Positions 46,970-58,197 of a stretch of 64,000 nucleotides of DNA are shown here, in pieces. Each line of letters starts with the position of its first letter. Position 1 is the stretch's first letter. The notes beneath the pieces were generated by a model, which saw only the letters and a program-made list of their open reading frames with translations, was not told the origin of the DNA and did no database searches. The DNA lies in the NCBI RefSeq assembly GCF_000953825.1, contig NZ_BBUL01000092.1, positions 62,001 to 126,000 of the forward strand. Reading direction: 5' to 3'. Source of the DNA: Cellvibrio sp. OA-2007 (GTDB taxonomy: Bacteria; Pseudomonadota; Gammaproteobacteria; Pseudomonadales; Cellvibrionaceae). Position numbers and translations under genes: made by a program.

Positions 46970-47099
46970 AAGCTTGGGGAATAAGCATCCTTATAGATGA
47001 CCTAAAATTATTATTCTCATCTTTCATATTTGCAACCAAAGTCTATAAATATTACTTAATGAATCATTTAGGTGTGTAGATATCACACACACCACATAA

Positions 47100-47146
47100 T
47101 GTATACGTTTACGAACACACAAAATCACGAGATGTAAACGATTACT
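47100..47146 (-). promoter_or_regulatory. Twin LacI-like operators upstream of the TonB receptor
   Basis: TGTATACGTTTACG (47100-47113) and TGTAAACGATTACT (47133-47146) are imperfect palindromes centred on CG, 33 bp apart (about three helical turns). They resemble LacI-family sites and may support looping. Elsewhere in 46802-47406 I see an AT-rich 11-bp hairpin (47201-47232) but no gene. Confidence 0.55.
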
Positions 47147-47406
47147 TACAATTTAATAATACAATTCATCGCCTGTAATTAACAAAAAAACAAAATTAAT
47201 AAATCCTAATATTTATTAATTTATTAGGATTTTTATCCCAATATAAACAAGAATAAAAAAGCCCTGACACTGACCCAATCAAAAGATACAACTGACGAGA
47301 AGGGCCCAACAGCAGCAGCCAGGTACCACCGTTTTTATGCAGTGAATAAAAACCTAAAGTGTTTTATTCTGCCAGGTAACGACAAAAAAATAGCTTGGGA
47401 GAAACC

Positions 47407-47880
47407 ATGAATAACCCGCAACGCGACATCACCCTACGCTTTCTGGCAGAGCCGCAAGATGTGAATTTTGGTGGAAAGGTTCACGGCGGCGCCGTGATGA
47501 AATGGATCGACCTTGCAGCCTATGCTTGCGCGGCAGGCTGGAGTAGTCGCTACTGCGTCACGGCCTATGCTGGCGGCATTCGTTTTGTATCGCCTATTCA
47601 TGTCGGCAATTTGGTGGAAGTGAGCGCAAAAATTATCTACACCGGCAAATCCTCAATGCACATTGCCATCGAAGTAAATGCCTGCGACCCAAAATCCCTC
47701 AACCGACGCCTCACCACTCACTGCATCGTGATCATGGTCGCGGTTGACGAGTCTGGCCACCCAGTCATTGTGCCCGAATGGGTTCCACAAACGGAGGAGG
47801 ACAAACAGCAACATGCCACTGCGATTAAACTGATGGACATGCGCAAAAAAATTGGCGAAGAAATGCAGATTTTTGTGTGA
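47407..47880 (+). CDS. Acyl-CoA thioesterase, YciA-like hotdog
   Basis: This 157-residue protein starts at the ATG at 47407 (GGGAG upstream). The hotdog fold shows Asn-Phe-Gly-Gly-Lys-Val-His-Gly-Gly-Ala-Val-Met-Lys-Trp-Ile-Asp, the helix and catalytic region of acyl-CoA hydrolases of the YciA/BACH group. It hydrolyses acyl-CoA to free acid and CoA. It is the last chromosomal gene before the accessory region; its stop codon lies 31 bp from the first TCGACAC repeat. Confidence 0.9.
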   Translation: MNNPQRDITLRFLAEPQDVNFGGKVHGGAVMKWIDLAAYACAAGWSSRYCVTAYAGGIRFVSPIHVGNLVEVSAKIIYTGKSSMHIAIEVNACDPKSLNRRLTTHCIVIMVAVDESGHPVIVPEWVPQTEEDKQQHATAIKLMDMRKKIGEEMQIFV

Positions 47881-47911
47881 TGCCTACTGCGAAAAAAAAT
47901 CCACGATAGCT

Positions 47912-47930
47912 TCGACACTTTTTCGACACT
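47912..47930 (+). repeat. Paired TCGACAC sites, left copy
   Basis: Two TCGACAC heptamers lie 11 bp apart. The same pair with the same spacing occurs at 48800-48818 on the other side of the FitAB-like module. This looks like recombinase arm sites or element ends. Confidence 0.55.
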
Positions 47931-47931
47931 T

Positions 47932-48354
47932 CTAGCCCTGCCACTCCCAAGGATTAATCACATCGACCTTCGCCGCTTCAAATGGAGCGGTATCGCGAGA
48001 GGCAATCTTAAAGCCTTGAGACACAGCGATGGCCGCAATATAACCATCAGGAACCGGGAAGCCGCGCCCTGCAGCCCGAGCCGTAACAGCCAGGTCGGCA
48101 TATTTCCGCGAAGCTACAACATCAAATGACAGGATGCGGCCCTCAAACAATTCGATAAGACGATTAAGCGCTTCGTTTAGCATGTCCTTGCGCTTACCAC
48201 TGGGCAAAGTACCGATGCCAAACAGCATTTCCGCCAGCGTGACGCTAGACAGATACAGGGTTTCATAAGGCTGGGCATTAAGCCAAGCTCGTACATTGGG
48301 GTGCGGCTCCGGCTTCATCGCCTCCGAAACAACATTGGTGTCCAATAAAATCAT
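47932..48354 (-). CDS. PIN-domain toxin, VapC/FitB-like
   Basis: This 140-residue PIN nuclease has the four acidic metal ligands at Asp5 (Leu-Leu-Asp-Thr-Asn), Glu42, Asp103 (Pro-Asp-Gly-Tyr-Ile-Ala-Ala-Ile-Ala) and Asp121. The family cleaves specific tRNAs or other RNA. The Asp-Thr-Asn-Val-Val-Ser-Glu and Glu-Met-Leu-Phe-Gly-Ile motifs point to the FitB subgroup. It overlaps the antitoxin gene by 4 nt. Confidence 0.9.
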   Translation of the reverse strand: MILLDTNVVSEAMKPEPHPNVRAWLNAQPYETLYLSSVTLAEMLFGIGTLPSGKRKDMLNEALNRLIELFEGRILSFDVVASRKYADLAVTARAAGRGFPVPDGYIAAIAVSQGFKIASRDTAPFEAAKVDVINPWEWQG

Positions 48355-48599
48355 TCAAACCTCACCGGCTCTGCGGGTGCCTTGTCGCGCACCTGATCAA
48401 ACACGGCAAAGTCATCGTTGGTTAACCCGATTTCGCGTCCCAATGATGCCAACGCATCTCCCATACGAATACGAGATTCAGGCCTAATAGCTTCCTCCAA
48501 GATCGCGCGAACCTCTGCCTCGGTACTGCGATTATGAAGTTTCGCCCTAACCTTTAAGGCATTGTGTATCTCATCCGGTATATTTCTTACGGTCATCAT
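48351..48599 (-). CDS. FitA-like RHH antitoxin
   Basis: This protein of about 82 residues has an N-terminal ribbon-helix-helix (Val-Arg-Asn-Ile-Pro-Asp-Glu-Ile-His-Asn-Ala-Leu-Lys and Arg-Ser-Thr-Glu-Ala-Glu-Val-Arg-Ala-Ile-Leu), as in FitA. Two adjacent ATGs (48599, 48596) are the likely starts; an upstream extension is possible but unlike the family. It precedes and overlaps the PIN toxin. A TTGATATCAA palindrome at 48653-48662 could be its operator. Confidence 0.88.
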   Translation of the reverse strand: MMTVRNIPDEIHNALKVRAKLHNRSTEAEVRAILEEAIRPESRIRMGDALASLGREIGLTNDDFAVFDQVRDKAPAEPVRFE

Positions 48600-48799
48600 A
48601 GCCACAACATTTACCCCCCCCATGAAGTCAACAAACAATCATCGAATGCCAATTGATATCAAATTAACAAAAATGAATGCATAAGACAACATCCGATTCC
48701 TTTGCACCTGAAGGTATGCACATCCCCACCATTAGTCCCTTCGGCAAAGCTCGCCGACGCGATTCATATTTGCACCTGCCACCGATGAATAATAGTTTT

Positions 48800-48818
48800 T
48801 CGACACCCTATCGACACT
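48800..48818 (+). repeat. Paired TCGACAC sites, right copy
   Basis: TCGACAC heptamers at 48800 and 48811 repeat the 11-bp spacing and orientation of the left copy at 47912-47930. Confidence 0.55.
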
Positions 48819-48838
48819 CCAAACCCAGAAAAGCAAAA

Positions 48839-48867
48839 ACCCCGACAATCTCTAGGATTATCGGGGT
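48839..48867 (-). terminator. Terminator beside the displaced tRNA fragment
   Basis: ACCCCGA pairs with TCGGGGT with an inner AATC/GATT stem and T5 on the minus strand. It lies just past the displaced tRNA-Arg 3' fragment, as the original tRNA terminator would. Confidence 0.75.
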
Positions 48868-48881
48868 TTAGCGACTTCTAT

Positions 48882-48906
48882 ATGGTGCCTCAGGATGAAT
48901 CGAACA
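48882..48906 (-). repeat. Degenerate tRNA-Arg 3' end (far att site of the island)
   Basis: On the minus strand this reads as a tRNA T-loop (GTTCGATTC), an acceptor strand and CCA. It matches the 3' end of tRNA-Arg(ACG) at 57749-57772 except for two substitutions and one missing base. It is the expected displaced copy left by integration into the tRNA 3' end, now mutated. The stretch from here to 49059 holds no gene. Confidence 0.75.
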
Positions 48907-48956
48907 TTTACCACAAGCCCAGTAAACACAAGGCATTAATAGACGGCAGAAAACCA

Positions 48957-48980
48957 CGTACCCGTAAACGTACCCACAAA
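48957..48980 (+). repeat. Integrase arm-type repeat, left
   Basis: A 24-bp sequence beginning CGTACCCGTAAAC is repeated with one difference at 57614-57637 at the other island end, in the same orientation. The core TACCCACAAA unit recurs several times near the integrase. Confidence 0.7.
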
Positions 48981-49059
48981 CTCATCATGTGGCTAACCTT
49001 TAAGCACGTCCCTCCTCCTTTTGATTAGCCACCTCACAAAATAGATGAAGTATTGATAT

Positions 49060-49078
49060 TATACGTCTAAAGCGTATA
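49060..49078 (+). promoter_or_regulatory. higBA operator
   Basis: TATACG-N7-CGTATA is a perfect inverted repeat 8 bp before the toxin start, where the HigA-type antitoxin would repress its operon. Confidence 0.65.
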
Positions 49079-49086
49079 CTGAAAAT

Positions 49087-49401
49087 ATGTATACCGTTAT
49101 TGAAACGCCGACCTTCCAACGCTACGCAAATGATATTTGGCAGGATGATGAGCGCCAAGCCTTTATTACTTGGATAGCCGAAAACCCGCTTGCAGGTGAT
49201 GTGATTGCAGGAACCCAAGGACTTCGGAAGGTGAGATGGTCGCGCGCGGGCATGGGTAAACGTGGCGGGGCAAGAATTATCTACTACAACACATTGGCCG
49301 ATGGCTCGATTTGGTTGTTAATCGCTTACACCAAGGCAAAGTTTGACAACCTACCGGCTGAATTTTTGAATCAACTAAAAGAGGCTATTCATTATGGATA
49401 A
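49087..49401 (+). CDS. HigB2/RelE-like toxin
   Basis: This 104-residue protein has the RelE/HigB2 pattern: Thr-Pro-Thr-Phe-Gln-Arg-Tyr-Ala at the N-terminus, Ile-Ala-Glu-Asn-Pro-Leu-Ala-Gly-Asp-Val-Ile, Gly-Leu-Arg-Lys-Val-Arg-Trp and Gly-Ala-Arg-Ile-Ile-Tyr-Tyr. Such toxins cleave mRNA on the ribosome. The toxin-first order and an 8-nt overlap with the HTH antitoxin are typical of higBA modules, which help maintain islands. Confidence 0.88.
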   Translation: MYTVIETPTFQRYANDIWQDDERQAFITWIAENPLAGDVIAGTQGLRKVRWSRAGMGKRGGARIIYYNTLADGSIWLLIAYTKAKFDNLPAEFLNQLKEAIHYG

Positions 49402-49678
49402 AGAGCTAGAGCAATTCCAAGCTGATTTGCTGCAATCTGTTAAAGAAATGAAGGCAGGTAAAGCCGCACGCATTACCCATGTAGAGGTGCCCACCGCTGT
49501 AGAAGCGCGCAATAAGGTAGGCGTATCACAGGCCGCTTTCGCTACTCTTCTTGGAGTAAGCAAACGCACATTGCAAGAATGGGAACAAGGCCGCAAGCAA
49601 CCTTCTGGCGCTGCCAAAACCTTGCTGCAAGTTGCCGTGCTTCACCCTGAAGTTTTGCGCGAGCTACACGCGGTTTAA
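49394..49678 (+). CDS. HigA2/NadS-like HTH antitoxin
   Basis: This 94-residue protein has a C-terminal Xre-type HTH (about 40-85): Val-Gly-Val-Ser-Gln-Ala-Ala-Phe-Ala, Leu-Gly-Val-Ser-Lys-Arg-Thr-Leu-Gln-Glu-Trp-Glu-Gln-Gly. This matches NadS/HigA2 antitoxins, which neutralise the toxin with the N-terminus and bind DNA. It overlaps the toxin gene by 8 nt. Its stop overlaps by 4 nt the end of the convergent recombinase gene. Confidence 0.9.
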   Translation: MDKELEQFQADLLQSVKEMKAGKAARITHVEVPTAVEARNKVGVSQAAFATLLGVSKRTLQEWEQGRKQPSGAAKTLLQVAVLHPEVLRELHAV

Positions 49679-50784
49679 ACAACTTGCTGTCGATGCATCT
49701 CTATGGCGATCTGTTTAGCCAGTTCCACAACATCAGGCGATTGGCCGCCATTACCCACGCGCGGCTCTTTGAACTCTTTAAAAATCTCCCCTTGCCTGCT
49801 CTCTTGCACATCGCCATAGCTGTAAAAGGTGGTCAGTACGCCTTCATGCCCTAGGTTTTGGCTCCACGCTTTAAACTCTTCGGCGTTTTTGCACAGCGTT
49901 TGGCCGTGGCGCACTAACATGTGCCTAAAGCTATGAGGGTTAAAGTAGACTAAACCCGCCCGCTCAAACGCCTCTTTAAATATTTTGCGGATGGGTGAGG
50001 CGTTACTCCAGCATTCACGCTTTAAGCCGCCTACCTCAAACTGGTTTGTCACCCCCACTTTCATCAAAGTTGAAGGGAATAATGGATCGTCATTACCCCA
50101 CAGCATTTCTTCGCGCAAATACTTAACCCAATCCGATACGATGTTCAAAGCTTCATCACCTACAGGGAAAAAGTAAGTGGTAAAGGTTTTGCTGAATTTG
50201 GTATTTACCTCGCGCGCATCTTGAATCGCGCAATTAGCCGCTAAATCCACATGCTTTAATTTCATGGAGGCGATAGCACTATCACGCGCACCGGTTAATA
50301 GAGTGAAGGCAAGCAAGGAGCGGTTGCGGCGCTCTATATCCGTGGCAAACGGCATTTGCGATAACACATGCTTAACCTGTTCAAGTGTCGGTACTTTTTG
50401 GCCGCGTTTGGCGGTGGCGATACGCACATCTTTTTCAGATAAATTAAAATAGTCGGCATCGGTATAGTGAAAACGCGACTTGTAACCGGCTTGCCCAGAT
50501 AGCCATTGAAAAAAACGTTTTAAATTAGCAAGAGTAGCGTGCAAGGTAGACTTGCTTAATTTCTCCCCCGAACGCGCGCCATGTTGTTCGGCTAAAAAGT
50601 TTTTAAAGGCTACCGCTTGCTGATAATGGAACGCTTTAAAGTCACGCCGTTTGGTGTGCTCTTCAAAGCGTGTGAGTGATTTTGCCACCGCATCAATAGT
50701 GGCTTCACTTTGTCGCTTTGCCTCTTTCAAATAAGCAAAGTAGCGGCGTTTAATTCGTTCGTTTTCGGCGTTGTGTGTTTTCAT
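49675..50784 (-). CDS. Tyrosine recombinase (second island recombinase)
   Basis: This 369-residue protein has a SAM-like N-terminal core-binding domain and a catalytic domain. The Arg is in Thr-Gly-Ala-Arg-Asp-Ser, the His-x-x-Arg in His-Ser-Phe-Arg-His, the second His in Leu-Gly-His-Glu-Gly and the nucleophile Tyr in Thr-Thr-Phe-Tyr-Ser-Tyr. It is distinct from the P4-type integrase. It follows a zinc-ribbon HTH protein by 3 nt, a pairing seen in other proteobacterial islands. Whether it moves this island, an older one, or resolves dimers is unknown. Confidence 0.9.
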   Translation of the reverse strand: MKTHNAENERIKRRYFAYLKEAKRQSEATIDAVAKSLTRFEEHTKRRDFKAFHYQQAVAFKNFLAEQHGARSGEKLSKSTLHATLANLKRFFQWLSGQAGYKSRFHYTDADYFNLSEKDVRIATAKRGQKVPTLEQVKHVLSQMPFATDIERRNRSLLAFTLLTGARDSAIASMKLKHVDLAANCAIQDAREVNTKFSKTFTTYFFPVGDEALNIVSDWVKYLREEMLWGNDDPLFPSTLMKVGVTNQFEVGGLKRECWSNASPIRKIFKEAFERAGLVYFNPHSFRHMLVRHGQTLCKNAEEFKAWSQNLGHEGVLTTFYSYGDVQESRQGEIFKEFKEPRVGNGGQSPDVVELAKQIAIEMHRQQVV

Positions 50785-50787
50785 GTT

Positions 50788-51288
50788 TTAACTCACTCCT
50801 CTCAAGTCACTGTTTAGGCTAGGTTGATTGCTATCACCTATATGCTTTTCAGCTTGCGGAAAAGTGATTTCCATTTCCCCCTTGATCAGTGGAATTTTTG
50901 CCAAACTCACCCGCCTATTCATCACAGCTTCGCAACATGAACACAGCCCAATAAGGTTGCCCATTTTGTCGTTACTGGGTTGGTAGTCCACCATATTGGC
51001 GGCGGGTTTTTGTGGGGAGCGACAACGCAAGCAATACATCTCCCCCGCTTGGCAAGGCTGCTTACTGTTACCGCGCTTGGCTTGTAAAAATGCCGCCAGT
51101 TCGCGCCCTAAAATTAATACAGGGCGCTTGTCGTCACACAAAGGCAGACCGGTTTTAATCCAAGCGCGCACGGTGTTTTTGTGGATACCGAATAACTTGG
51201 CGATTTCTTCTACCGTATAATTACGGTGGATTTTTACCAAGCGCGGATTGGGACGGCGGGCTTTCACGATAATTTCTTGCGTTCGCAT
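50788..51288 (-). CDS. HTH and zinc-ribbon DNA-binding protein
   Basis: This 166-residue protein has an N-terminal HTH (Tyr-Thr-Val-Glu-Glu-Ile-Ala-Lys-Leu-Phe-Gly-Ile-His-Lys-Asn-Thr-Val, about 24-45). A probable zinc ribbon follows, with pairs Cys-Leu-Arg-Cys and Cys-Ser-Cys-Cys. It lies between an AlpA-like gene (25-nt overlap) and the recombinase (3-nt gap), so all three are one operon. A recombination accessory or regulator role is inferred only from this context. Confidence 0.7.
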   Translation of the reverse strand: MRTQEIIVKARRPNPRLVKIHRNYTVEEIAKLFGIHKNTVRAWIKTGLPLCDDKRPVLILGRELAAFLQAKRGNSKQPCQAGEMYCLRCRSPQKPAANMVDYQPSNDKMGNLIGLCSCCEAVMNRRVSLAKIPLIKGEMEITFPQAEKHIGDSNQPSLNSDLRGVS

Positions 51289-51506
51289 TCCAGCGTGGCA
51301 ACTAACTCGCGCATTTCATCATCCGTTTTACCGGCAATTCGTGCAGCATTCAAAGTGGTAACTTCACTTGCTGGCCAACCCACAGAACGGCCACCTAATG
51401 AGATAGGTTTTGTCCATAAGCCTTGGCTAATGCGCAAGTAGATTGTGGAACGGGAAAGCCCGCTTTCTGTTTTTACAGTGGGTAAACGTAGGATTGTTTT
51501 AAGCAT
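51264..51506 (-). CDS. AlpA-like excisionase/regulator
   Basis: This 80-residue protein starts at the ATG at 51506, giving Met-Leu-Lys-Thr-Ile-Leu-Arg-Leu-Pro-Thr-Val-Lys. The AlpA HTH pattern is clear: Ser-Gly-Leu-Ser-Arg-Ser-Thr-Ile-Tyr-Leu-Arg-Ile, Pro-Ile-Ser-Leu-Gly-Gly-Arg-Ser-Val-Gly-Trp. AlpA proteins regulate integrases and serve as excisionases in P4-type islands. It heads the zinc-ribbon/recombinase operon. Confidence 0.9.
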   Translation of the reverse strand: MLKTILRLPTVKTESGLSRSTIYLRISQGLWTKPISLGGRSVGWPASEVTTLNAARIAGKTDDEMRELVATLECERKKLS

Positions 51507-51610
51507 GTTGGCACCCCCATGGGCGTTGTTGAACATGCTTTTTATTAAATAGATTTAGGGTAATGCAGGCACCGCAACTGCGATAATAGCAACCGCAGCT
51601 GCGGTAATTA

Positions 51611-52378
51611 TTAGGACTTTATCGAGCGTTTTGATGCGGCAAACTTCTCTTCCAACGTTCTTGCTGCTATGCCAGATTTACCGCTATGGTAAGCCAATAA
51701 AGCAGAAATAATGGCCGCTTGAGAGTCATATACAGATTGCGGATTACCAGCGGGGGTTTTACCTAGCATTAACTCCAACAATCCGCCAATAATGTTTAAA
51801 TAGGTAGTTTCGGCGCGTTCATTAGGTGCGGCCATTTTATCGACTATTGCTCGCAAGGAGTCGCGCTCACCTGTAATAAAATCGCGCTCTTGTTTTAGCT
51901 CACGAAACACTTCGGTCGCCTTCTCAAGTCGAGCTTTTAACGCATCACGGTCTGCCTGCAATGCCCGAAAAGTATCGGCGTTAATTGCAGAGTGAGTTGT
52001 GCGCTCAATATCATCAAATAAGAATGCAGGCTTTTGATCTGGGTAACGTTTTTGCATCCATTCTTTTAAATCGGCATGCCTAATAGTCAATCGATGCTGC
52101 GCAACTTGCTCACCCATGGGAACTGTACGACCATCACGACCATCACGACCATAAGGTATTTCCTGACTCAACAAAGCATCAAGCACTCGTTCAGCGTTAG
52201 CACGCAAACACGGCCACTGAGGAAACATACTAGGAGTAGGAATAATAGATTCTTGCACTTGGCGCAAAATCATTTCTTCATGAGCAATTAAATTACACCA
52301 GCGTAAGGCGGCCTCAATTGGTTTATAAAAAGGCTTTTCTAGCGCATTACAGCTTTTAGAGTCATAACCTGAATTCAC
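51611..52378 (-). CDS. Unknown coiled-coil protein encoded after the MmeI-like enzyme
   Basis: I do not recognise a family. The 255-residue protein has an N-terminal mixed region, a Gly-Arg-Asp-Gly-Arg-Asp-Gly-Arg stretch near residue 77-84 encoded by a 9-bp tandem repeat (about 52127-52150), a helical coiled coil (about 137-175) and a C-terminal basic part. It starts 2 nt after the stop of the restriction-modification gene, so it is probably translated with it. It could be an accessory of that system or an unrelated island protein. Confidence 0.65.
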   Translation of the reverse strand: MNSGYDSKSCNALEKPFYKPIEAALRWCNLIAHEEMILRQVQESIIPTPSMFPQWPCLRANAERVLDALLSQEIPYGRDGRDGRTVPMGEQVAQHRLTIRHADLKEWMQKRYPDQKPAFLFDDIERTTHSAINADTFRALQADRDALKARLEKATEVFRELKQERDFITGERDSLRAIVDKMAAPNERAETTYLNIIGGLLELMLGKTPAGNPQSVYDSQAAIISALLAYHSGKSGIAARTLEEKFAASKRSIKS

Positions 52379-52380
52379 GA

Positions 52381-55128
52381 TTAAGCCTCCTTTTTCTTAC
52401 GCGGCTTTTTAGGCTTTTCAGCAGGTAAAAGGCTGGTGTACTTTTGGTACAGCTCAAACAGAAACGCAACTCGCTCAGCTTCAGTTTTGAAGTTGGTTTT
52501 GCCATAGGCTGCATCTACGGCCTTATCCAGTGTTTGGTGGGCTTTAAGCAGTACAGGGGGCATAGTTAGCGGATCGTATAGATCAGCCAAGGATGATTCT
52601 GGAAATTGAGTGCGCGCATCTAACACCGCTTGCGCAGCGGTTTCAATAGTTTGGGTTTGCTTTTCAGTGGGGTTTTCTGGCCATGGGAAGTTGTTGTAAA
52701 CAATACCCGCTGAATAACGATAATCGCTTTTTAGCCGACCACAAACAGTACGCATCCATGAATTGTGCATAAGTGATGATAAAACGCCAAAATCATAGCG
52801 TGTTGCATTGGGCACCATTTTTACTAAATTACTACTTAGCGTTTCTGGTGACTCAAAACCAATTGGAAGATAATATCTGCGCTCAGAAGACACTTCTGGA
52901 ATGATCAAATAATCATTCTCTGGCATATTTTCTACATGGAAGCGGGTAGGTGTTGCCGCCAATTTTTGCGTTGGAGCACTTTTGCTGGCCAATCGAGTTT
53001 TGCGAACAGCATCAACTCGCTTCATTGCCTCGGGCATAGCCCTTAGCTGTGAGGGCGAACAACCTCCCAACCACAAGCAATAGCGGTGATACCCATTTAA
53101 AAACTCATCAGCACCCAACCAACGTCTAAAGTATAAGGCGGCTTGCGGTTCAACCTGTAAAAAAACATTTTTTTCTTCTTCAGTAAAAAGGTAGTGACCA
53201 CCGTCAATTGGCTTATTGCCGATACCTATATCTAGCACAGCACATATTGGCTTACTGCGATTAGGTAGCACTGTATCAGGTGCATCTATTAGGTACGGGT
53301 TTATATTATTTGCCGGTAAGACATGAGCTTCGCCTTTAATATTTTCATACTCAAACAGCCACTTAGATGACACATCTCGACAGGAAAACCCAACAATCAC
53401 ACAATGTACAGCCGCCTTTCCACGCGCCTCGTTATTCCAAGAAAACGTACGGTGCGCAAAAAATATCTTCATCCCTTGGGCCAGCATCCAACTCCACAAA
53501 ACGCCAACCTGTTCACCTTGGCAAATTGAATTAGTAGAAACAAACGCACAACGAATATTAGATTCTTGAATCATATCCGCCGCTTTCACGTACCAAGCGG
53601 CCACAAAATCCAACAACCCCGCGTTTTTAATACCACCAAATACAAAGCCTACATCTTGCTTTTGTTGCTCACCCATAAACTTAGCGCCAATAAACGGCGG
53701 ATTCCCCATAATAAAACTCAGCTTTTCTGCTGGCACCACATCATTCCAATCCACCCGCAAAGCATTGGCGCAAACAATCGTACTAGTTGCCCTTAGGGGT
53801 ATGCGCGCAAAGTACATACCAAACTCTTCTGATACCTGCAGGTTCATTTGGTGATCCATTAACCACAACGCAACCTGTGCAATTTGAGCAGGGAATTCTT
53901 CAATTTCTATGCCGTAGAATTGATCTACATCTACCAAGATAAGTCCATTAACGTCCAAGGTGAGCTGATCGGTTACGCGGGCGGCGCGCAGCACTTCTAA
54001 TTCCAACAAGCGCAATTCGCGGTAGGCAATAACTAGGAAGTTGCCGCAACCGCAGGCAGGATCTAAAAACGTAAGTTTGCGCAGCTTTTGATGGAACTCA
54101 GCCAATTTATTTTTATTGGTTTTTGCCTTGTCGAATTCCGCCCAAAGATCATCCAAAAATAATGGTTTGATTAGCTTTAAAATATTCTTTTCGCTGGTGT
54201 AGTGAGCGCCCAAATTGCGCCGTGCTTTTTTGTCCATAATGGATTGAAAGAGCGAGCCAAAAATAGCCGGTGAAATGCGGCTCCAATCCAAGGCACAGCA
54301 ATCCAACAAAGCTTGGCGCATAGCCTTGTCAAAACTGGCGGTAGGTAGCATTTCTTCAAATAGCTTACCGTTTATGTAAGGAAAGGCGGCTAGCTGCTCA
54401 TCAAGGTTTTTAAAGCGTTTATCGTGCGGGGTATTGAGCACTTGAAACAAAGTGGTTATGTGGTGGGCTAAATCGCTGCCATCCTCACTGGTTCGGTCTT
54501 GAATGTACTCTTGAAATTGTTGGCGCTCGAATATGCCGGTATCTTCTGCAAAGAGAGAAAACAGCAGTCGCACCAAATAAAGCTCTAAAGCGTGCCCCTC
54601 ATAGCCCACCTCTTTCATTTGGTCATGTAGCTTACCCATGCTTTCGGCGGCTTTTATATTGACAGGGTCTTGATCTTTTATTTTGTGGGTTTGATAACCA
54701 GCAATAAAACCAAATAATTTGATGTTTTTGTGCAGGTCTTTTAATGGAAACTCGTGAATTTCCTTATCTTCAAGATTATAAAGGCGGAAACCAGCAAAAT
54801 CAGACACCAGCACATACTTAGGCAATTCATGCTCTTTAATGCCCGAGAAGTAGTCGAGAGCTTGGGTGTAGGCTTTATCTAAGTTTTTACCGCGCGATTT
54901 ATGCTCAACTATTAAAACGCCTTTCCAAAACAAATCAATGAAGCCTTGTTTATTGCCCAGCTTTTTTACTGGCTCTTCAAAGCTGGCAACCCGTTTGCGG
55001 GAAATACCAAATACGCCAAAAAAACCATCCCAAAAGCTTTTGGCTTCAGCATCTTCAGAGCACTCATGCTCCCATTGTTTACTAAACGCTAATGAACGGC
55101 TTTTGATTTCATTCCATGATAAAGGCAT
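52381..55128 (-). CDS. MmeI-like type IIL restriction-modification enzyme
   Basis: This 915-residue single-chain enzyme combines cutting and methylation. An N-terminal PD-ExK-like nuclease shows Asp65, Glu75 and Lys77 in Ile-Val-Glu-His-Lys-Ser-Arg. A helical spacer leads to a gamma-class adenine methyltransferase with SAM motif Asp-Pro-Ala-Cys-Gly-Cys-Gly-Asn-Phe (356-364) and catalytic Asn-Pro-Pro-Phe (476-479). A target-recognition domain and a basic C-terminal tail follow. MmeI relatives hemimethylate their site and cut about 20 bp away. It appears intact and is the main defence gene of the island. Confidence 0.9.
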   Translation of the reverse strand: MPLSWNEIKSRSLAFSKQWEHECSEDAEAKSFWDGFFGVFGISRKRVASFEEPVKKLGNKQGFIDLFWKGVLIVEHKSRGKNLDKAYTQALDYFSGIKEHELPKYVLVSDFAGFRLYNLEDKEIHEFPLKDLHKNIKLFGFIAGYQTHKIKDQDPVNIKAAESMGKLHDQMKEVGYEGHALELYLVRLLFSLFAEDTGIFERQQFQEYIQDRTSEDGSDLAHHITTLFQVLNTPHDKRFKNLDEQLAAFPYINGKLFEEMLPTASFDKAMRQALLDCCALDWSRISPAIFGSLFQSIMDKKARRNLGAHYTSEKNILKLIKPLFLDDLWAEFDKAKTNKNKLAEFHQKLRKLTFLDPACGCGNFLVIAYRELRLLELEVLRAARVTDQLTLDVNGLILVDVDQFYGIEIEEFPAQIAQVALWLMDHQMNLQVSEEFGMYFARIPLRATSTIVCANALRVDWNDVVPAEKLSFIMGNPPFIGAKFMGEQQKQDVGFVFGGIKNAGLLDFVAAWYVKAADMIQESNIRCAFVSTNSICQGEQVGVLWSWMLAQGMKIFFAHRTFSWNNEARGKAAVHCVIVGFSCRDVSSKWLFEYENIKGEAHVLPANNINPYLIDAPDTVLPNRSKPICAVLDIGIGNKPIDGGHYLFTEEEKNVFLQVEPQAALYFRRWLGADEFLNGYHRYCLWLGGCSPSQLRAMPEAMKRVDAVRKTRLASKSAPTQKLAATPTRFHVENMPENDYLIIPEVSSERRYYLPIGFESPETLSSNLVKMVPNATRYDFGVLSSLMHNSWMRTVCGRLKSDYRYSAGIVYNNFPWPENPTEKQTQTIETAAQAVLDARTQFPESSLADLYDPLTMPPVLLKAHQTLDKAVDAAYGKTNFKTEAERVAFLFELYQKYTSLLPAEKPKKPRKKKEA

Positions 55129-55145
55129 AGGGTGTTAACTCGATT

Positions 55146-56072
55146 TTAATTGGATTTATTTAATGCTTGTTGCCACAAAGGCAAAGCCTGCCAACCTTCA
55201 GGAAACCCCATTCGGTTAGCATCTATTGAATACTTTTCTATAAGTTGGGCTAGGTTTATTGCCCATAAAGAATCGGGGGAAATCACAGTTATTAAATGCT
55301 GCACAACCACCAAGGTATTATAAATTTTATGTTCGGTTTTGTTGCTGGCATCTATATAAATATTGTCTTTAAGGCCAACGGGTTTACCCTTGGGTAATGG
55401 CATTTTTTTAGTTAAATGACGATTCCACAAACGGCTATGGTGCGCGCACACATTACGCACATAAGTAATATGTTCTAAAAACCCTTCTAAAAACCCCTCA
55501 TCTACCTGATAGGCTGCTGCAATATTGCGCCGTACTTGGTTGGCTCTTAGGTTGCTATAGAAGCGGGACAATAGCCCGAGCGACATAACCTCACAACTTA
55601 CCCATGCGGGCGGCAGAGGCTCATCATAAGCTTCACGAAAGTGCTTTATAAAAACTTCATCACTACGTTGTACGTGCTCTTGTAACTCCTTAGTGTCATT
55701 CAATAACCGCCGCTCATCTTTACGCATTCCCTTGCTGTTTTCTAAATAGCCGTGCGCACCAAATTCATGGCTTATATGGTATGCCCATTGGGTGCGGAAT
55801 GAGACTTCAATGCGCTCAATTGCATCCAATAGATGCAACCGAAATTCACGATCAAATAGATAATTATTTAAGACCGTGTTGAATGATGTGGCGGGCGCAA
55901 AAACATGAGGGGCACGTGAAATCTCGAATGGTAGCCAATAGGCTTCCAATCGATAATAATTTATGTGGGATAGGTAGTGTATGGCGCTGGTACGATCTTC
56001 AACGGTCATGCCGCGTGAAATCAGTAGATCCACCTGTTGCTCAAAGGATATTGCAGGCTTTTTAAATTCCAT
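55146..56072 (-). CDS. Abi_2 (AbiD/AbiF-like) HEPN abortive infection protein
   Basis: This 308-residue protein matches the Abi_2 family: an N-terminal Phe-Glu-Gln-Gln-Val-Asp-Leu-Leu, His-Tyr-Leu-Ser-His-Ile-Asn-Tyr-Tyr-Arg-Leu (33-42), Phe-Asp-Arg-Glu-Phe-Arg and Ile-Glu-Val-Ser-Phe-Arg-Thr. The HEPN RNase motif Arg-x4-His is present as Arg206-Asn-Val-Cys-Ala-His211. Family members cause phage-triggered arrest, probably through RNA cleavage. AAGGGG precedes the ATG. A strongly folded leader with a terminator-like hairpin lies directly upstream; AbiF genes are known to follow a conserved structured RNA (AbiF RNA motif). It sits 17 nt before the restriction-modification gene. Confidence 0.9.
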   Translation of the reverse strand: MEFKKPAISFEQQVDLLISRGMTVEDRTSAIHYLSHINYYRLEAYWLPFEISRAPHVFAPATSFNTVLNNYLFDREFRLHLLDAIERIEVSFRTQWAYHISHEFGAHGYLENSKGMRKDERRLLNDTKELQEHVQRSDEVFIKHFREAYDEPLPPAWVSCEVMSLGLLSRFYSNLRANQVRRNIAAAYQVDEGFLEGFLEHITYVRNVCAHHSRLWNRHLTKKMPLPKGKPVGLKDNIYIDASNKTEHKIYNTLVVVQHLITVISPDSLWAINLAQLIEKYSIDANRMGFPEGWQALPLWQQALNKSN

Positions 56073-56107
56073 TAAAACCCCTTATTGTTGTATTTGTGGG
56101 GGACACA

Positions 56108-56220
56108 AAAAAATAACCCGCCAGTTTGAGGATATTCCGAAGAACATAGCCTTGGCGGGTATTGTTGCAGAAAGTATAAGTTATTTACTTTCGCCATGAC
56201 AACCCGTTTATTAGCCAAGT
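56108..56220 (-). ncRNA. Structured leader RNA of the Abi_2 gene, AbiF-RNA-like candidate
   Basis: On the minus strand there is first a long-range stem pairing 56214-56219, 56203-56205 and 56199-56202 with 56151-56156, 56157-56159 and 56162-56165 (13 pairs, interrupted). Inside it a 7-bp hairpin pairs 56170-56176 with 56186-56192. Then a hairpin pairs 56116-56123 with 56153-56160 and encloses a sub-stem closed by a C(UUCG)G tetraloop, followed by a U-rich tail. The outer stem and the terminator-like hairpin share 56153-56160, so they exclude each other. An internal promoter (TTGTCA, 18 bp, TATACT) may start a shorter 60-nt RNA. Confidence 0.65.
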
Positions 56221-56315
56221 TATGTTAATGCTTCAGACTCCCGCTTTTAGTTGATCCAGACACTTCGCCCGAGCGCGCGGCCTTTTAATTGCAGAGCCTT
56301 ACACATTTCTATCTA

Positions 56316-57563
56316 CTACGCCTTTTTATTGAAAGTGCCTGCAATCACATTGCCGCCCTTAGCTTGCACTTTGAGCACATCCAAATAATCTGCCCATTTT
56401 TGCATCATATCTTTGCGTTGCTCTAGGTGTTTGGTGCGATTGTAGGCGCGGCCTAAACTATCTTTTACGGCGTGAGCGAGTTGTTGTTCTATCCACTCAA
56501 CACGGAAACCTAAGACTTCATCCAACATAGTGCGGGCTGAAGAGCGGAAGCCGTGGGCGCAATGGGTTTCGCTGGTGTTGTAGCCCATGAGTTTTAGCGC
56601 CTTATTAATAGTCATATCACTGACATGCCCACCTTGACGCAATTCACTGGGGAACACATAGCGGCCATTACCGGTAAGTGGGCGCAAGTCACTGAGTATT
56701 TCTATTACCTGCTTACTTAAAGGAACCAAGTGCGGGATACCTTCGGGGCAGGTTTTTTTCTTGATTGATTTTGGGGGTGTATAGCGCCATTCGGCAGCTT
56801 CAAAATCTAACGCTGCCCATTCCATCGTTATCATTTCCCCAGGCCTTTGAAACAACAAAGGGCATACCGCCAAAAGTGCGCGCACTACATTGCCGCCAGT
56901 GTAGTTATCAATATCGACCAATAGACGGCCAAATTCTTTAGGTTCGGTGATAGCCGCCCTATTTTTTACGATCTTGGGAGCCAAGGCGCCGCGCAAGTCA
57001 TCGGCGGGGTTATTCGTAGTGCGTTGGGTTACGCGGGCATAACGGAATATTTGCGAAAGCATTTGGCGGGCGTTGCGTGCGGTTTCGGTTGCGCCGCGCT
57101 TTTCAATGCGCTGTAGGTTATTGAGCAAGTCTAATGATGTAAGCGTATCTATGGGTTTGGAGCCTAGCCATGGGATGAGGTCATTCTCTAACAACGCCAA
57201 ACGCTTTTTGGCGGTAGCGTCTGCCCATGAGGGCAATTGCTTGGCGTACCACTCATGAGCGATAGCGCCAAAACTATCAGCACCACTTTGGGAAACCTTA
57301 ACGGCTTTTTTGGTTTGATTTGGGTCTATACCAGTGGCAATAAGGGCGCGGGCTTTATCGCGCTCTTCGCGGGCGGCTTTGAGGGTGATTTCAGGATAAG
57401 CGCCGATGCTGTAGATATTCTCTTTACCAGCAAACCTGTATCTAAGCTGCCATATCTTGGCACCTGTGGGTTTCACCAGTAGAAATAGGCTTTTTTCATC
57501 GGCCAGCCGATATTGTTTATCAGTTGGCTTTGCTTGCTTAGCTTTTACGTCTGTTAACGCCAT
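56316..57563 (-). CDS. P4-type tyrosine integrase
   Basis: This 415-residue integrase starts at the ATG at 57563, giving the family-typical Met-Ala-Leu-Thr-Asp-Val-Lys-Ala-Lys. An N-terminal arm-binding DUF4102 domain (about 1-85) precedes core-binding and catalytic domains. The catalytic residues are Arg in Gln-Arg-Pro-Gly-Glu-Met, His-Gly-Phe-Arg, His in Leu-Ala-His-Ala-Val and Tyr in Arg-Ala-Tyr-Asn-Arg. Such integrases insert islands into tRNA 3' ends. It lies 185 bp from tRNA-Arg, with arm-type repeats between, and is probably the enzyme that inserted the 8.9-kb island. Confidence 0.94.
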   Translation of the reverse strand: MALTDVKAKQAKPTDKQYRLADEKSLFLLVKPTGAKIWQLRYRFAGKENIYSIGAYPEITLKAAREERDKARALIATGIDPNQTKKAVKVSQSGADSFGAIAHEWYAKQLPSWADATAKKRLALLENDLIPWLGSKPIDTLTSLDLLNNLQRIEKRGATETARNARQMLSQIFRYARVTQRTTNNPADDLRGALAPKIVKNRAAITEPKEFGRLLVDIDNYTGGNVVRALLAVCPLLFQRPGEMITMEWAALDFEAAEWRYTPPKSIKKKTCPEGIPHLVPLSKQVIEILSDLRPLTGNGRYVFPSELRQGGHVSDMTINKALKLMGYNTSETHCAHGFRSSARTMLDEVLGFRVEWIEQQLAHAVKDSLGRAYNRTKHLEQRKDMMQKWADYLDVLKVQAKGGNVIAGTFNKKA

Positions 57564-57613
57564 CTCATCCACCCCAAAGGCCATTTGTGGGTACGCGCGC
57601 TGTGGGTACAGAG

Positions 57614-57637
57614 CGTACCCGTAAACATACCCACAAA
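57614..57637 (+). repeat. Integrase arm-type repeat, right
   Basis: Matches 48957-48980 at 23 of 24 bases. Further TGTGGGTAC or TACCCACAAA units, in both orientations, lie at about 57589-57660, a typical cluster of integrase arm-binding sites. Confidence 0.7.
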
Positions 57638-57695
57638 AGTGGTTGGATTTGTGGGTATGTTATAGGATTGCTTTGGATGGAGTATAAACAAAAAA

Positions 57696-57713
57696 CCCCG
57701 CAATTACGCGGGG
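57696..57713 (-). terminator. Terminator after tRNA-Arg
   Basis: CCCCGC pairs with GCGGGG across a 6-nt loop, with T-run on the minus strand, 36 nt past the tRNA 3' end. Confidence 0.85.
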
Positions 57714-57748
57714 TTTGGGACGATTTTGTACTGTATCGTTCAGGTATA

Positions 57749-57825
57749 TGGTGCACTCAGGAGGATTCGAACCTCCGACCGCTCGGTTCGTAGCCGAGTA
57801 CTCTATCCAGCTGAGCTATGAGTGC
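57749..57825 (-). tRNA. tRNA-Arg (ACG)
   Basis: A complete 77-nt cloverleaf with encoded CCA. The acceptor stem is GCACTCA with TGAGTGC; the anticodon loop CTACGAA gives anticodon ACG; the T-loop is TTCGAAT. Its 3' end is the integration site of the neighbouring island, and a mutated copy lies at 48882-48906. ACG is normally edited to ICG to read three arginine codons. Confidence 0.96.
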
Positions 57826-58007
57826 GTTGTTGAGGCGCGCATTCTATTGATCGGAGTTCAGTGAGTCAAGCGTTTATTTGATTTTCTTTTGGGAAACTTT
57901 CAAATTAATGCTTTATAAATCAATGAAATAGAAATTTCGATCAACCTGTACAAATAGCAAACTAACCATGCCTTTACGCGAAACTGTACAGTTAAACTTT
58001 TTAAAAA

Positions 58008-58095
58008 TGGCGGTGAGAGAGGGAGTCGAACCCTCGATACCTTGCGGTATACACACTTTCCAGGCGTGCTCCTTCGGCCACTCGGACATCTCACC
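58008..58095 (-). tRNA. tRNA-Ser (GGA)
   Basis: A complete 88-nt type II tRNA with encoded CCA. The acceptor stem is GGTGAGA with TCTCACC, the anticodon loop CTGGAAA gives GGA, and the long variable arm and G discriminator are typical of serine tRNA. Confidence 0.96.
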
Positions 58096-58197
58096 GTTTT
58101 TTACCGCACTGGACATGCGGGCTTCGCCGAAAACACCATCCAAAGTACCCCCTGCGAAGGCGCGCTAATGTACACAAGCAAGCTCGCAAACGCAATC

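Follow-up and report, generated by a model that had tools for sequence, protein, structure and literature searches.

A single-hairpin abiF-type RNA, probably both antitoxin and terminator, ahead of an Abi_2 toxin gene in Cellvibrio sp. OA-2007, and toxin-free copies of such RNAs in phages

An Abi_2 family toxin gene (abiF) and its leader were analysed in a 64,000-nt stretch of Cellvibrio sp. OA-2007 (NZ_BBUL01000092.1, positions 62,001 to 126,000 of the forward strand), hereafter the window, whose positions serve as coordinates throughout. The locus was found to be a real further instance of the published AbiF-RNA system, with an anatomy that differs from the one drawn in a first-pass annotation of the same DNA. 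We consider it highly probable that the locus works as a toxin-antitoxin and phage-defence module of AbiF type (type III-like), in which one RNA hairpin doubles as antitoxin and terminator. The elements of this module are given below, where RF03085 is the Rfam abiF family and R1 is an RNA model that has the window's own sequence among the rows from which it was built.

56173..56202, minus strand: predicted sigma-70 promoter with -35 box TTGTCA (56202-56197), spacer of 18 and -10 box TATACT (56178-56173); 10 of 12 matches
56107..56166, minus strand: predicted abiF-type RNA of ~60 nt (short 5' leader, single abiF hairpin, U tract), both ends estimated; RF03085 and R1
56116..56160, minus strand: abiF hairpin; RF03085 match, fold and covariation
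56160-56154 with 56122-56116, minus strand: outer stem P1 of the hairpin, probably also the terminator stem
56153, minus strand: unpaired A between P1 and P2
56152-56150 with 56131-56129, minus strand: stem P2 of the hairpin
56149-56148, minus strand: CU bulge of the hairpin
56147-56142 with 56137-56132, minus strand: stem P3 of the hairpin with UUCG cap (56141-56138)
56128-56123, minus strand: 3' bulge CAAACU of the hairpin
56105..56115, minus strand: U-rich tail directly 3' of P1, likely an intrinsic terminator together with P1; from sequence
56078..56083, minus strand: likely ribosome-binding site AAGGGG, 5 nt ahead of the ATG; from sequence
55146..56072, minus strand: abiF (Abi_2) toxin gene of the HEPN ribonuclease family, open reading frame (ORF) of 308 aa; Pfam, PADLOC and PDB matches
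55440..55457, minus strand: HEPN catalytic motif R206-N-V-C-A-H211; protein alignment

The hairpin that the first-pass annotation had already noticed, with its C(UUCG)G loop and U tail, was borne out by its fold and by the bases of its tail. The 64-nt hairpin fold has an energy of -21.0 kcal/mol (z -3.87) that was equalled in none of 200 shuffles, and the nine bases after the stem contain eight T in the window and five to eight T in the other RNA-bearing leaders. The stem ends 44 nt before the ATG, placing the element upstream of an Abi_2 gene. The suspected kinship with the Rfam abiF motif was recovered in a permissive search of 601 bases, in which RF03085 matched 56159-56116 with 27.1 bits (E 0.012), although this score lies under the gathering score of 37 bits. 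The alignment was strong on both arms and over the CUCAAA stretch, and the surplus length fell within the inner hairpin. Thus, the window RNA shares P1, the unpaired A, P2, the 3' bulge and the position before Abi_2 with RF03085, and differs from it by a longer inner hairpin with a UUCG loop. On this alignment it is an abiF-type RNA homologous to RF03085 members, though not a member by Rfam's rule. R1 matched 56168-56105 with 68.7 bits, bearing in mind that the window is itself among its rows. An Rfam scan of the whole window at the family thresholds reported tRNA only, and weak matches of rli38, ODC_IRES and TB10Cs5H2 over the leader were rejected as being at chance level (E 1 to 7.7). In the scan of its own genome, R1 gave one match at E <= 0.001, and a single Abi_2 gene was found.

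The conservation of this RNA was monitored in leaders of homologous genes. The homologue search comprised three loci from named genomes and matches in 32 of the 369 genomes of the class, and 31 readable leaders other than the window's remained after removal of the duplicates L001, L005 and L006. An abiF-form hairpin was present ahead of the start codon in 28 of these 31, and the RNA was also found just before the gene in all five plasmid relatives that were fetched and scanned. The 28 RNA-bearing homologues and the window together formed the set of 29 leaders used for covariation and promoter analyses, with a MAFFT alignment for the pair counts. In this set, 95.5% of the cells were paired as compared with 81.9% after shuffling, and two-sided changes occurred in 30 cells against 6.8 in shuffled alignments and at most 8 in slid versions. 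The hairpins were selected by the outer stem P1 and five of them were placed anew by hand, so the pairing of P1 is not independent evidence, whereas P2 was unused in the selection. In P2, 97.7% of the cells were paired and all three pairs showed two-sided changes (C-G to A-U or U-A; G-C to U-A; C-G to G-C). Besides P1, the conserved parts across leaders were P2, the CU bulge and the 5' leader. The pairs of the abiF hairpin covary, P2 included. The long-range stem drawn in this leader in the first-pass annotation is not conserved in homologues.

When RF03085 was searched on 19 homologous loci, 13 matched before the gene at E <= 1 (29.2-55.0 bits) and six exceeded the threshold of 37. One of these six, L007 (41.7 bits), falls in the protein group of the window itself. 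By sequence, the window RNA is therefore linked to accepted abiF RNAs via intermediate members, while the window and its nearest kin miss the Rfam threshold. Furthermore, the RNAs were assigned by hand to two types labelled for this analysis, type A with CUCAAA, to which the window belongs, and type B for the remainder, mostly with ACG...GCGCACC or similar. The distribution of these types on the protein tree required three changes as compared with 9.4 for shuffled labels (none of 500 as low), and one supported protein group (100/97) consisted of nine type-A proteins, including the window's. The divergent abiF kinship was thus upheld by the sub-threshold match, the 28 leaders, the compensatory changes in P2 and the tracking of the protein tree by RNA type, and the detection of abiF RNAs was extended below the Rfam threshold. 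As a separate observation, a single Abi_2 gene in L078 (G266:C21) is preceded by two abiF RNAs, type A and then type B, ~100 nt apart. In L065, L071 and L076, an abiF RNA is followed by apparent short Abi_2 remnants: tblastn gave weak matches in L065 and L076, and L071 shows, by eye, a short start-like ORF. The RNA seems to outlive the toxin in these loci.

Promoters were sought with the end of the -10 box allowed anywhere from 10 to 22 nt ahead of the hairpin, and in 28 of the 29 leaders the top-scoring one had this end at 11-16 nt, the distance in the window being 13 nt. The mean promoter score was 9.38 as compared with a shuffled mean of 7.14 and a highest value of 7.52 in 300 shuffle rounds, and taken singly, the promoters of L012, L015, L019, L020 and L021 were no better than at least a quarter of their own shuffles. 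Because the count of promoter-like sites in 1.3 kb (4) is near that expected (3.4), the promoter call in the window rests on the conserved position, and from this position the transcript is predicted to start near 56166. What the sequences themselves show is the anatomy, the conserved distances between promoter, hairpin and U tract, the covarying pairs and the co-inheritance of RNA type with protein. Together, the sequence and its conservation agree with an order of promoter, RNA, terminator and toxin gene as in type III co-transcription, the promoter and the terminator being predictions.

The gene itself encodes an Abi_2 protein with Arg206-x4-His211, as first annotated. PF07751 (Abi_2) matched the window protein over the whole domain (187.6 bits, E 3.5e-55, cut-off 25.6, profile positions 1-184 of 184), PADLOC labelled it as AbiD (E 2.1e-76), and the solved AbiF structure of the PbAbiF-AbiFr complex (PDB 8VZ6, chain 8vz6_A, Abi family protein; Zilberzwige-Tal et al.) was homologous across residues 2-301 (E 2.2e-50). 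R206, N207, A210 and H211 were without variation in all 17 aligned proteins, which agrees with the HEPN pattern R-N-x3-H. The AbiFCd protein of Clostridioides difficile has been demonstrated to be toxic, and its toxicity was reported to be lost on changing R202 and H207 (PMC12373285). By analogy with these published relatives, the window AbiF is inferred to be a toxic ribonuclease.

Among the closest known systems is the AbiFCd-RCd22 pair of the C. difficile prophage phi027 (PMC12373285), which, as described there, shares with the window an Abi_2 HEPN protein with an R-N-x-C-A-H motif, an abiF-motif RNA directly upstream, a promoter before this RNA and a terminator between RNA and gene. RCd22 acts in trans, binding and inhibiting AbiFCd, and its effect was abolished by a stem-destabilising mutation and not by one that keeps the pairing (PMC12373285). 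It contains two abiF motifs and a separate terminator, whereas the window has one motif whose own stem is likely the terminator; a second motif upstream was not found by R1, the other matches in the window being at 15.1 and 14.7 bits and elsewhere. In the copy carried by phage phiC2 (leader L082), the two abiF motifs score 37.6 and 19.5 bits and stand with a separate terminator, unlike the single hairpin-terminator of the aligned leaders, and the phiC2 AbiF is 34% identical to the window protein. In PbAbiF-AbiFr, one noncoding RNA per monomer is reported (via PMC12373285, PMC12737573 and PMC12948488), and inhibition of the nuclease is ascribed to two nucleotides in a bulge of the 8VZ6 RNA, C32 and U38 (PMC12737573). 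In the type III system ToxIN, too, the gene of an endoribonuclease is preceded by its RNA antitoxin and a terminator separates the two, but its toxin and antitoxin structures are unlike those of AbiF, and tandem repeats are given as a key feature of type III antitoxin RNA (PMC12373285). Such repeats were not seen here, with one strong R1 match in the window.

On these grounds, transcription would start close to 56166 from the promoter at 56202-56173 and would mostly stop once the abiF hairpin and its U tract have been made, yielding an abundant RNA of ~60 nt. The outer stem P1 would act in cis as a terminator that keeps the toxin mRNA rare, and the folded RNA (P1, P2 and the 3' CAAACU bulge) would act in trans by binding the AbiF dimer and blocking its HEPN ribonuclease. 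Readthrough would give the AbiF mRNA and probably also that of an MmeI-like enzyme encoded 17 nt downstream. A shortage of the RNA, for instance through a phage that shuts down transcription in the host or acts against the complex, may then let AbiF cut RNA and halt growth before phage release. The binding of RNA to protein, the toxicity and the defence function are argued here by analogy with the published relatives, and the trigger and the co-expression with the restriction enzyme are pure inference. In this compact form of the system, one hairpin probably serves as antitoxin and terminator alike, and both the supply of the toxin and its inhibition would thereby be set by an element of ~60 nt.

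Several results weigh against this interpretation. The more distant homologues L032-L034 (32-38% identity) lack the RNA, and R1 found none in them either, so other ways of controlling the protein must exist; the absence of such a leader from homologues, which would count against the proposal, was confined to these three. The window RNA itself scores under the RF03085 gathering value, six of the 19 homologous loci gave no RF03085 match at E <= 1, yet all of these carry the hairpin, and the three closest relatives L002-L004 gave none at E <= 0.5 in a 68.5-kb scan. A search of the window's own genome with RF03085 at E <= 0.001 returned nothing, as did the control genomes. The terminator scan reported no terminator at the hairpin, its loop limit of 8 nt being unable to see this one. 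In addition, the architecture of RCd22 is unlike that of the window, so details of the mechanism may differ.

A pure attenuator role, in which the hairpin terminator keeps the toxin low without any antitoxin function of the RNA once released, agrees with the terminator shape of P1 and the U tract. However, termination alone would not call for conservation of P2, the CU bulge or the leader, and these parts were found conserved, with P2 covarying. Since RNA type also follows the protein tree, copies occur in phage genomes without the toxin gene and RCd22 acts in trans through protein binding (PMC12373285), we regard such an attenuator as improbable. Less probable still is the switch between two folds that was drawn in the first-pass annotation, taken here to mean a leader that alternates between the 13-pair long-range stem, as antiterminator, and the terminator hairpin, as a riboswitch-like sensor. 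The long-range pairing exists on paper, with -13.0 kcal/mol as compared with a shuffled mean of -8.9 and 7% of shuffles as good, and a riboswitch-like readthrough has been speculated upon for RCd22 by its authors (PMC12373285). If transcription starts near 56166, then the long stem's 5' arm (reconstructed at ~56219-56199, at and above the -35 box of the positionally conserved promoter) and the whole 7-bp hairpin proposed beside it (56192-56170, spanning the -10 box) lie upstream of the predicted RNA. In homologous leaders the long-range pairing was no better than chance (one of 28 below 5%). When a 126-nt transcript was forced to fold, the minimum free energy and centroid structures held the abiF hairpin and the 7-bp hairpin and not the long stem. 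Neither the long stem nor the 7-bp hairpin is thus retained as an RNA element, and the misleading switch reading is corrected. A guide-like cofactor role, steering AbiF to target RNAs as crRNA does Cas13, has hardly any likelihood: reviews do report AbiF as the ancestor of Cas13, but the segment in which relatives vary is the inner hairpin, self-paired in the case of the window, no spacer-like segment was seen (no dedicated spacer search was run), and two reviews, in the parts concerned with AbiF, describe a toxin-antitoxin system without guided targeting.

Copies of the abiF RNA were also found in viral sequences that lack the toxin gene. Two exact abiF patterns, in which most of P1 is held constant together with parts of P2 and of the bulge, matched 110 and 68 stretches in IMG/VR (178 in total, L088-L265), and the mirror image of the first (type-B) pattern gave no match, a control that holds for type B only. 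The Abi_2 profile was found downstream in six of the 178 loci and no other locus matched even at E 10. Among the 160 loci with at least 700 nt of room, 154 lacked the gene, and 18 of the 178 had less than 700 nt. Applied to 34 control loci from bacteria, plasmids and phages, of which 19 are not in the profile, the same procedure detected Abi_2 in every one. The proportion of strong bacterial R1 matches with Abi_2 was 29 of 38 as compared with six of 178 in viruses, the former being a model search and the latter pattern searches, so the methods differ. By flanking sequence, the 178 matches fell into 99 groups, 94 of whose representatives had no Abi_2 in the locus. A PF07751 check of whole contigs for 41 of these 94 found none, with both positive controls detected, although the contigs may be fragments.

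Only positions outside the exact patterns count as structural evidence in these copies. The first pair outside the pattern was complementary in 94 of 94 (C-G 90, G-C 3, U-A 1) and the second in 90 of the 94, where five pair types occurred. In the 46 type-A copies, the free third pair of P2 was G-C in 25 and C-G in 21, with no mismatch. A U tract was present in 67 of the 94 copies as compared with 6.8% of background windows. The commonest PHROGs families near the RNA (91 loci, longest ORFs, two to six members each) included terminase, helicase, portal, ribonucleotide reductase and tail sheath. A simple ORF caller placed 29 of the 94 RNAs inside an ORF of at least 60 aa, which weighs against a clean intergenic place in those cases.

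In a phage BLAST database of 50,697 records, the type-B consensus matched 57 records and the type-A consensus 28. Both RNA types of bacterial AbiF loci are found among phage copies. A chosen subset of 16 records was examined (those of the toxin-free set are labelled L266-L273, L275, L277 and L280), with whole records checked for Abi_2. RF03085 was above its threshold in 10 of the 16 and PF07751 was found in none, whereas the control phage phiC2 contained both Abi_2 and the abiF RNA. The RF03085 scores above threshold were 55.7 bits for S-SZBM1, 54.9 for Thibault, 52.2 for S-CREM1, 50.7 for T7-Ah, 50.1 for PZL-Ah8, 50.1 for CGphi29, 44.4 for PT2, 40.5 for Bromden, 40.0 for ctMEh928 (spring source, no host) and 38.0 for RHEph21. 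SNW-1, Pasto, MT836731 and Pan2 were below it, and RF03085 gave no match in Faith1 and Caulobacter phage RW. The type-A matches in mycobacteriophages were not confirmed as abiF at the matched spot, namely in Faith1 (R1 15.5 bits) and in Bromden, where the abiF match lies elsewhere. Three T7-like Aeromonas phages have the RNA flanked by the connector gene on one side and the capsid-assembly or scaffold gene on the other. A P1 pair that is C-G in one of PZL-Ah8 and PT2 is A-U in the other.

We hold it somewhat better than an even chance that phages of many lineages carry these toxin-free RNAs as decoy antitoxins, a proposal with a good footing in sequence. Made by the phage in the course of infection, the folded RNA would displace the host RNA on AbiF proteins such as the window's and keep the ribonuclease shut. 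The S-CREM1 abiF small RNA has been reported with 51.6 bits and as probably functional during infection, and the Rfam abiF set is described as including three phages (PMC9964418); a review repeats the S-CREM1 RNA as unconfirmed (PMC12197685). A search of the open-access literature, with subscription papers and preprints outside its scope, found in the text available to it no proposal that phage abiF RNAs inhibit AbiF. A precedent exists in the phage pseudo-ToxI, a mimic of the ToxI antitoxin RNA (PMC3475682). If true, the decoys would be a natural RNA-based counter-defence against AbiF and evidence for its anti-phage action in nature, an activity that the C. difficile authors called challenging to demonstrate for AbiFCd (PMC12373285).

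In four of the phages, S-CREM1, S-SZBM1, Bromden and RHEph21, the abiF RNA overlaps or adjoins tRNA genes. In viral contigs bearing tRNA, it lay at most 250 nt from a tRNA in seven of 14 as compared with 1.69 expected by random placement, and such a placement is what an RNA counter-defence set may show. The tRNA-associated copies are L269, L271, L272 and L273 among the phages and L182, L088, L240, L247 and L100 among the contigs.

The genes on both sides of the module were identified as follows.

52381..55128, minus strand: MmeI-like single-chain restriction-modification (R-M) enzyme, 915 aa, probable operon partner of abiF; Pfam, PADLOC
56316..57584, minus strand: tyrosine integrase, upstream of the promoter, adjoining tRNA-Arg
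57749-57825: tRNA-Arg, beside the integrase

The R-M enzyme that had been noticed nearby is of the MmeI type and directly downstream of abiF, the abiF stop and its start being separated by 17 nt. It matched PF20473 (1.3e-95), PF20466, PF20464, PF20467 and PF20465, and the PADLOC type IIG model (E 0). A gene of R-M type starting at most 60 nt past the abi stop on the same strand was found in seven of 29 RNA-bearing loci, which are the window (MmeI), L002, L003 and L007 (N6_N4_Mtase), L012 (HsdM), and L016 and L022 (HsdR domains). Among the five RNA-bearing plasmid relatives, L083 is part of an R-M operon of type I, whereas genes for DNA methyltransferases and helicases surround L085 and L087. 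Abi2/AbiF/AbiD genes have been listed among the HEPN genes embedded in R-M operons (PMC3710099), as abiF stands directly before the MmeI-like enzyme here. The passages of that paper on these genes mention no abiF RNA, and in the loci studied here AbiF has several types of R-M neighbour, the MmeI-like enzyme being one. In L072 (G225:C61:9239-9509), a tandem pair of abiF RNAs precedes an ORF of 996 aa that reads as an HsdR-type restriction subunit, and no Abi_2 match was found within the 4.2-kb locus, so the antitoxin RNA alone heads an R-M gene there.

The integrase and tRNA-Arg upstream suggest a mobile island. A tRNA attachment repeat was sought for it and rejected, the only direct-repeat family of at least 18 nt in 47000-58100 being outside the tRNA. 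This family is a 24-nt direct repeat, 96% identical, at 48957-48980 and 57614-57637, ~8.7 kb apart, which brackets the R-M and AbiF region. Its second copy sits between the integrase and tRNA-Arg, and the copies are possible recombinase sites or island ends. In addition, two more small gene pairs that look like toxin-antitoxin pairs lie at 47932-48638 and 49087-49678, one with a PIN-like protein and a small partner, judged by eye, and the other with a helix-turn-helix protein of the MqsA/NadS-antitoxin type and a small upstream ORF.

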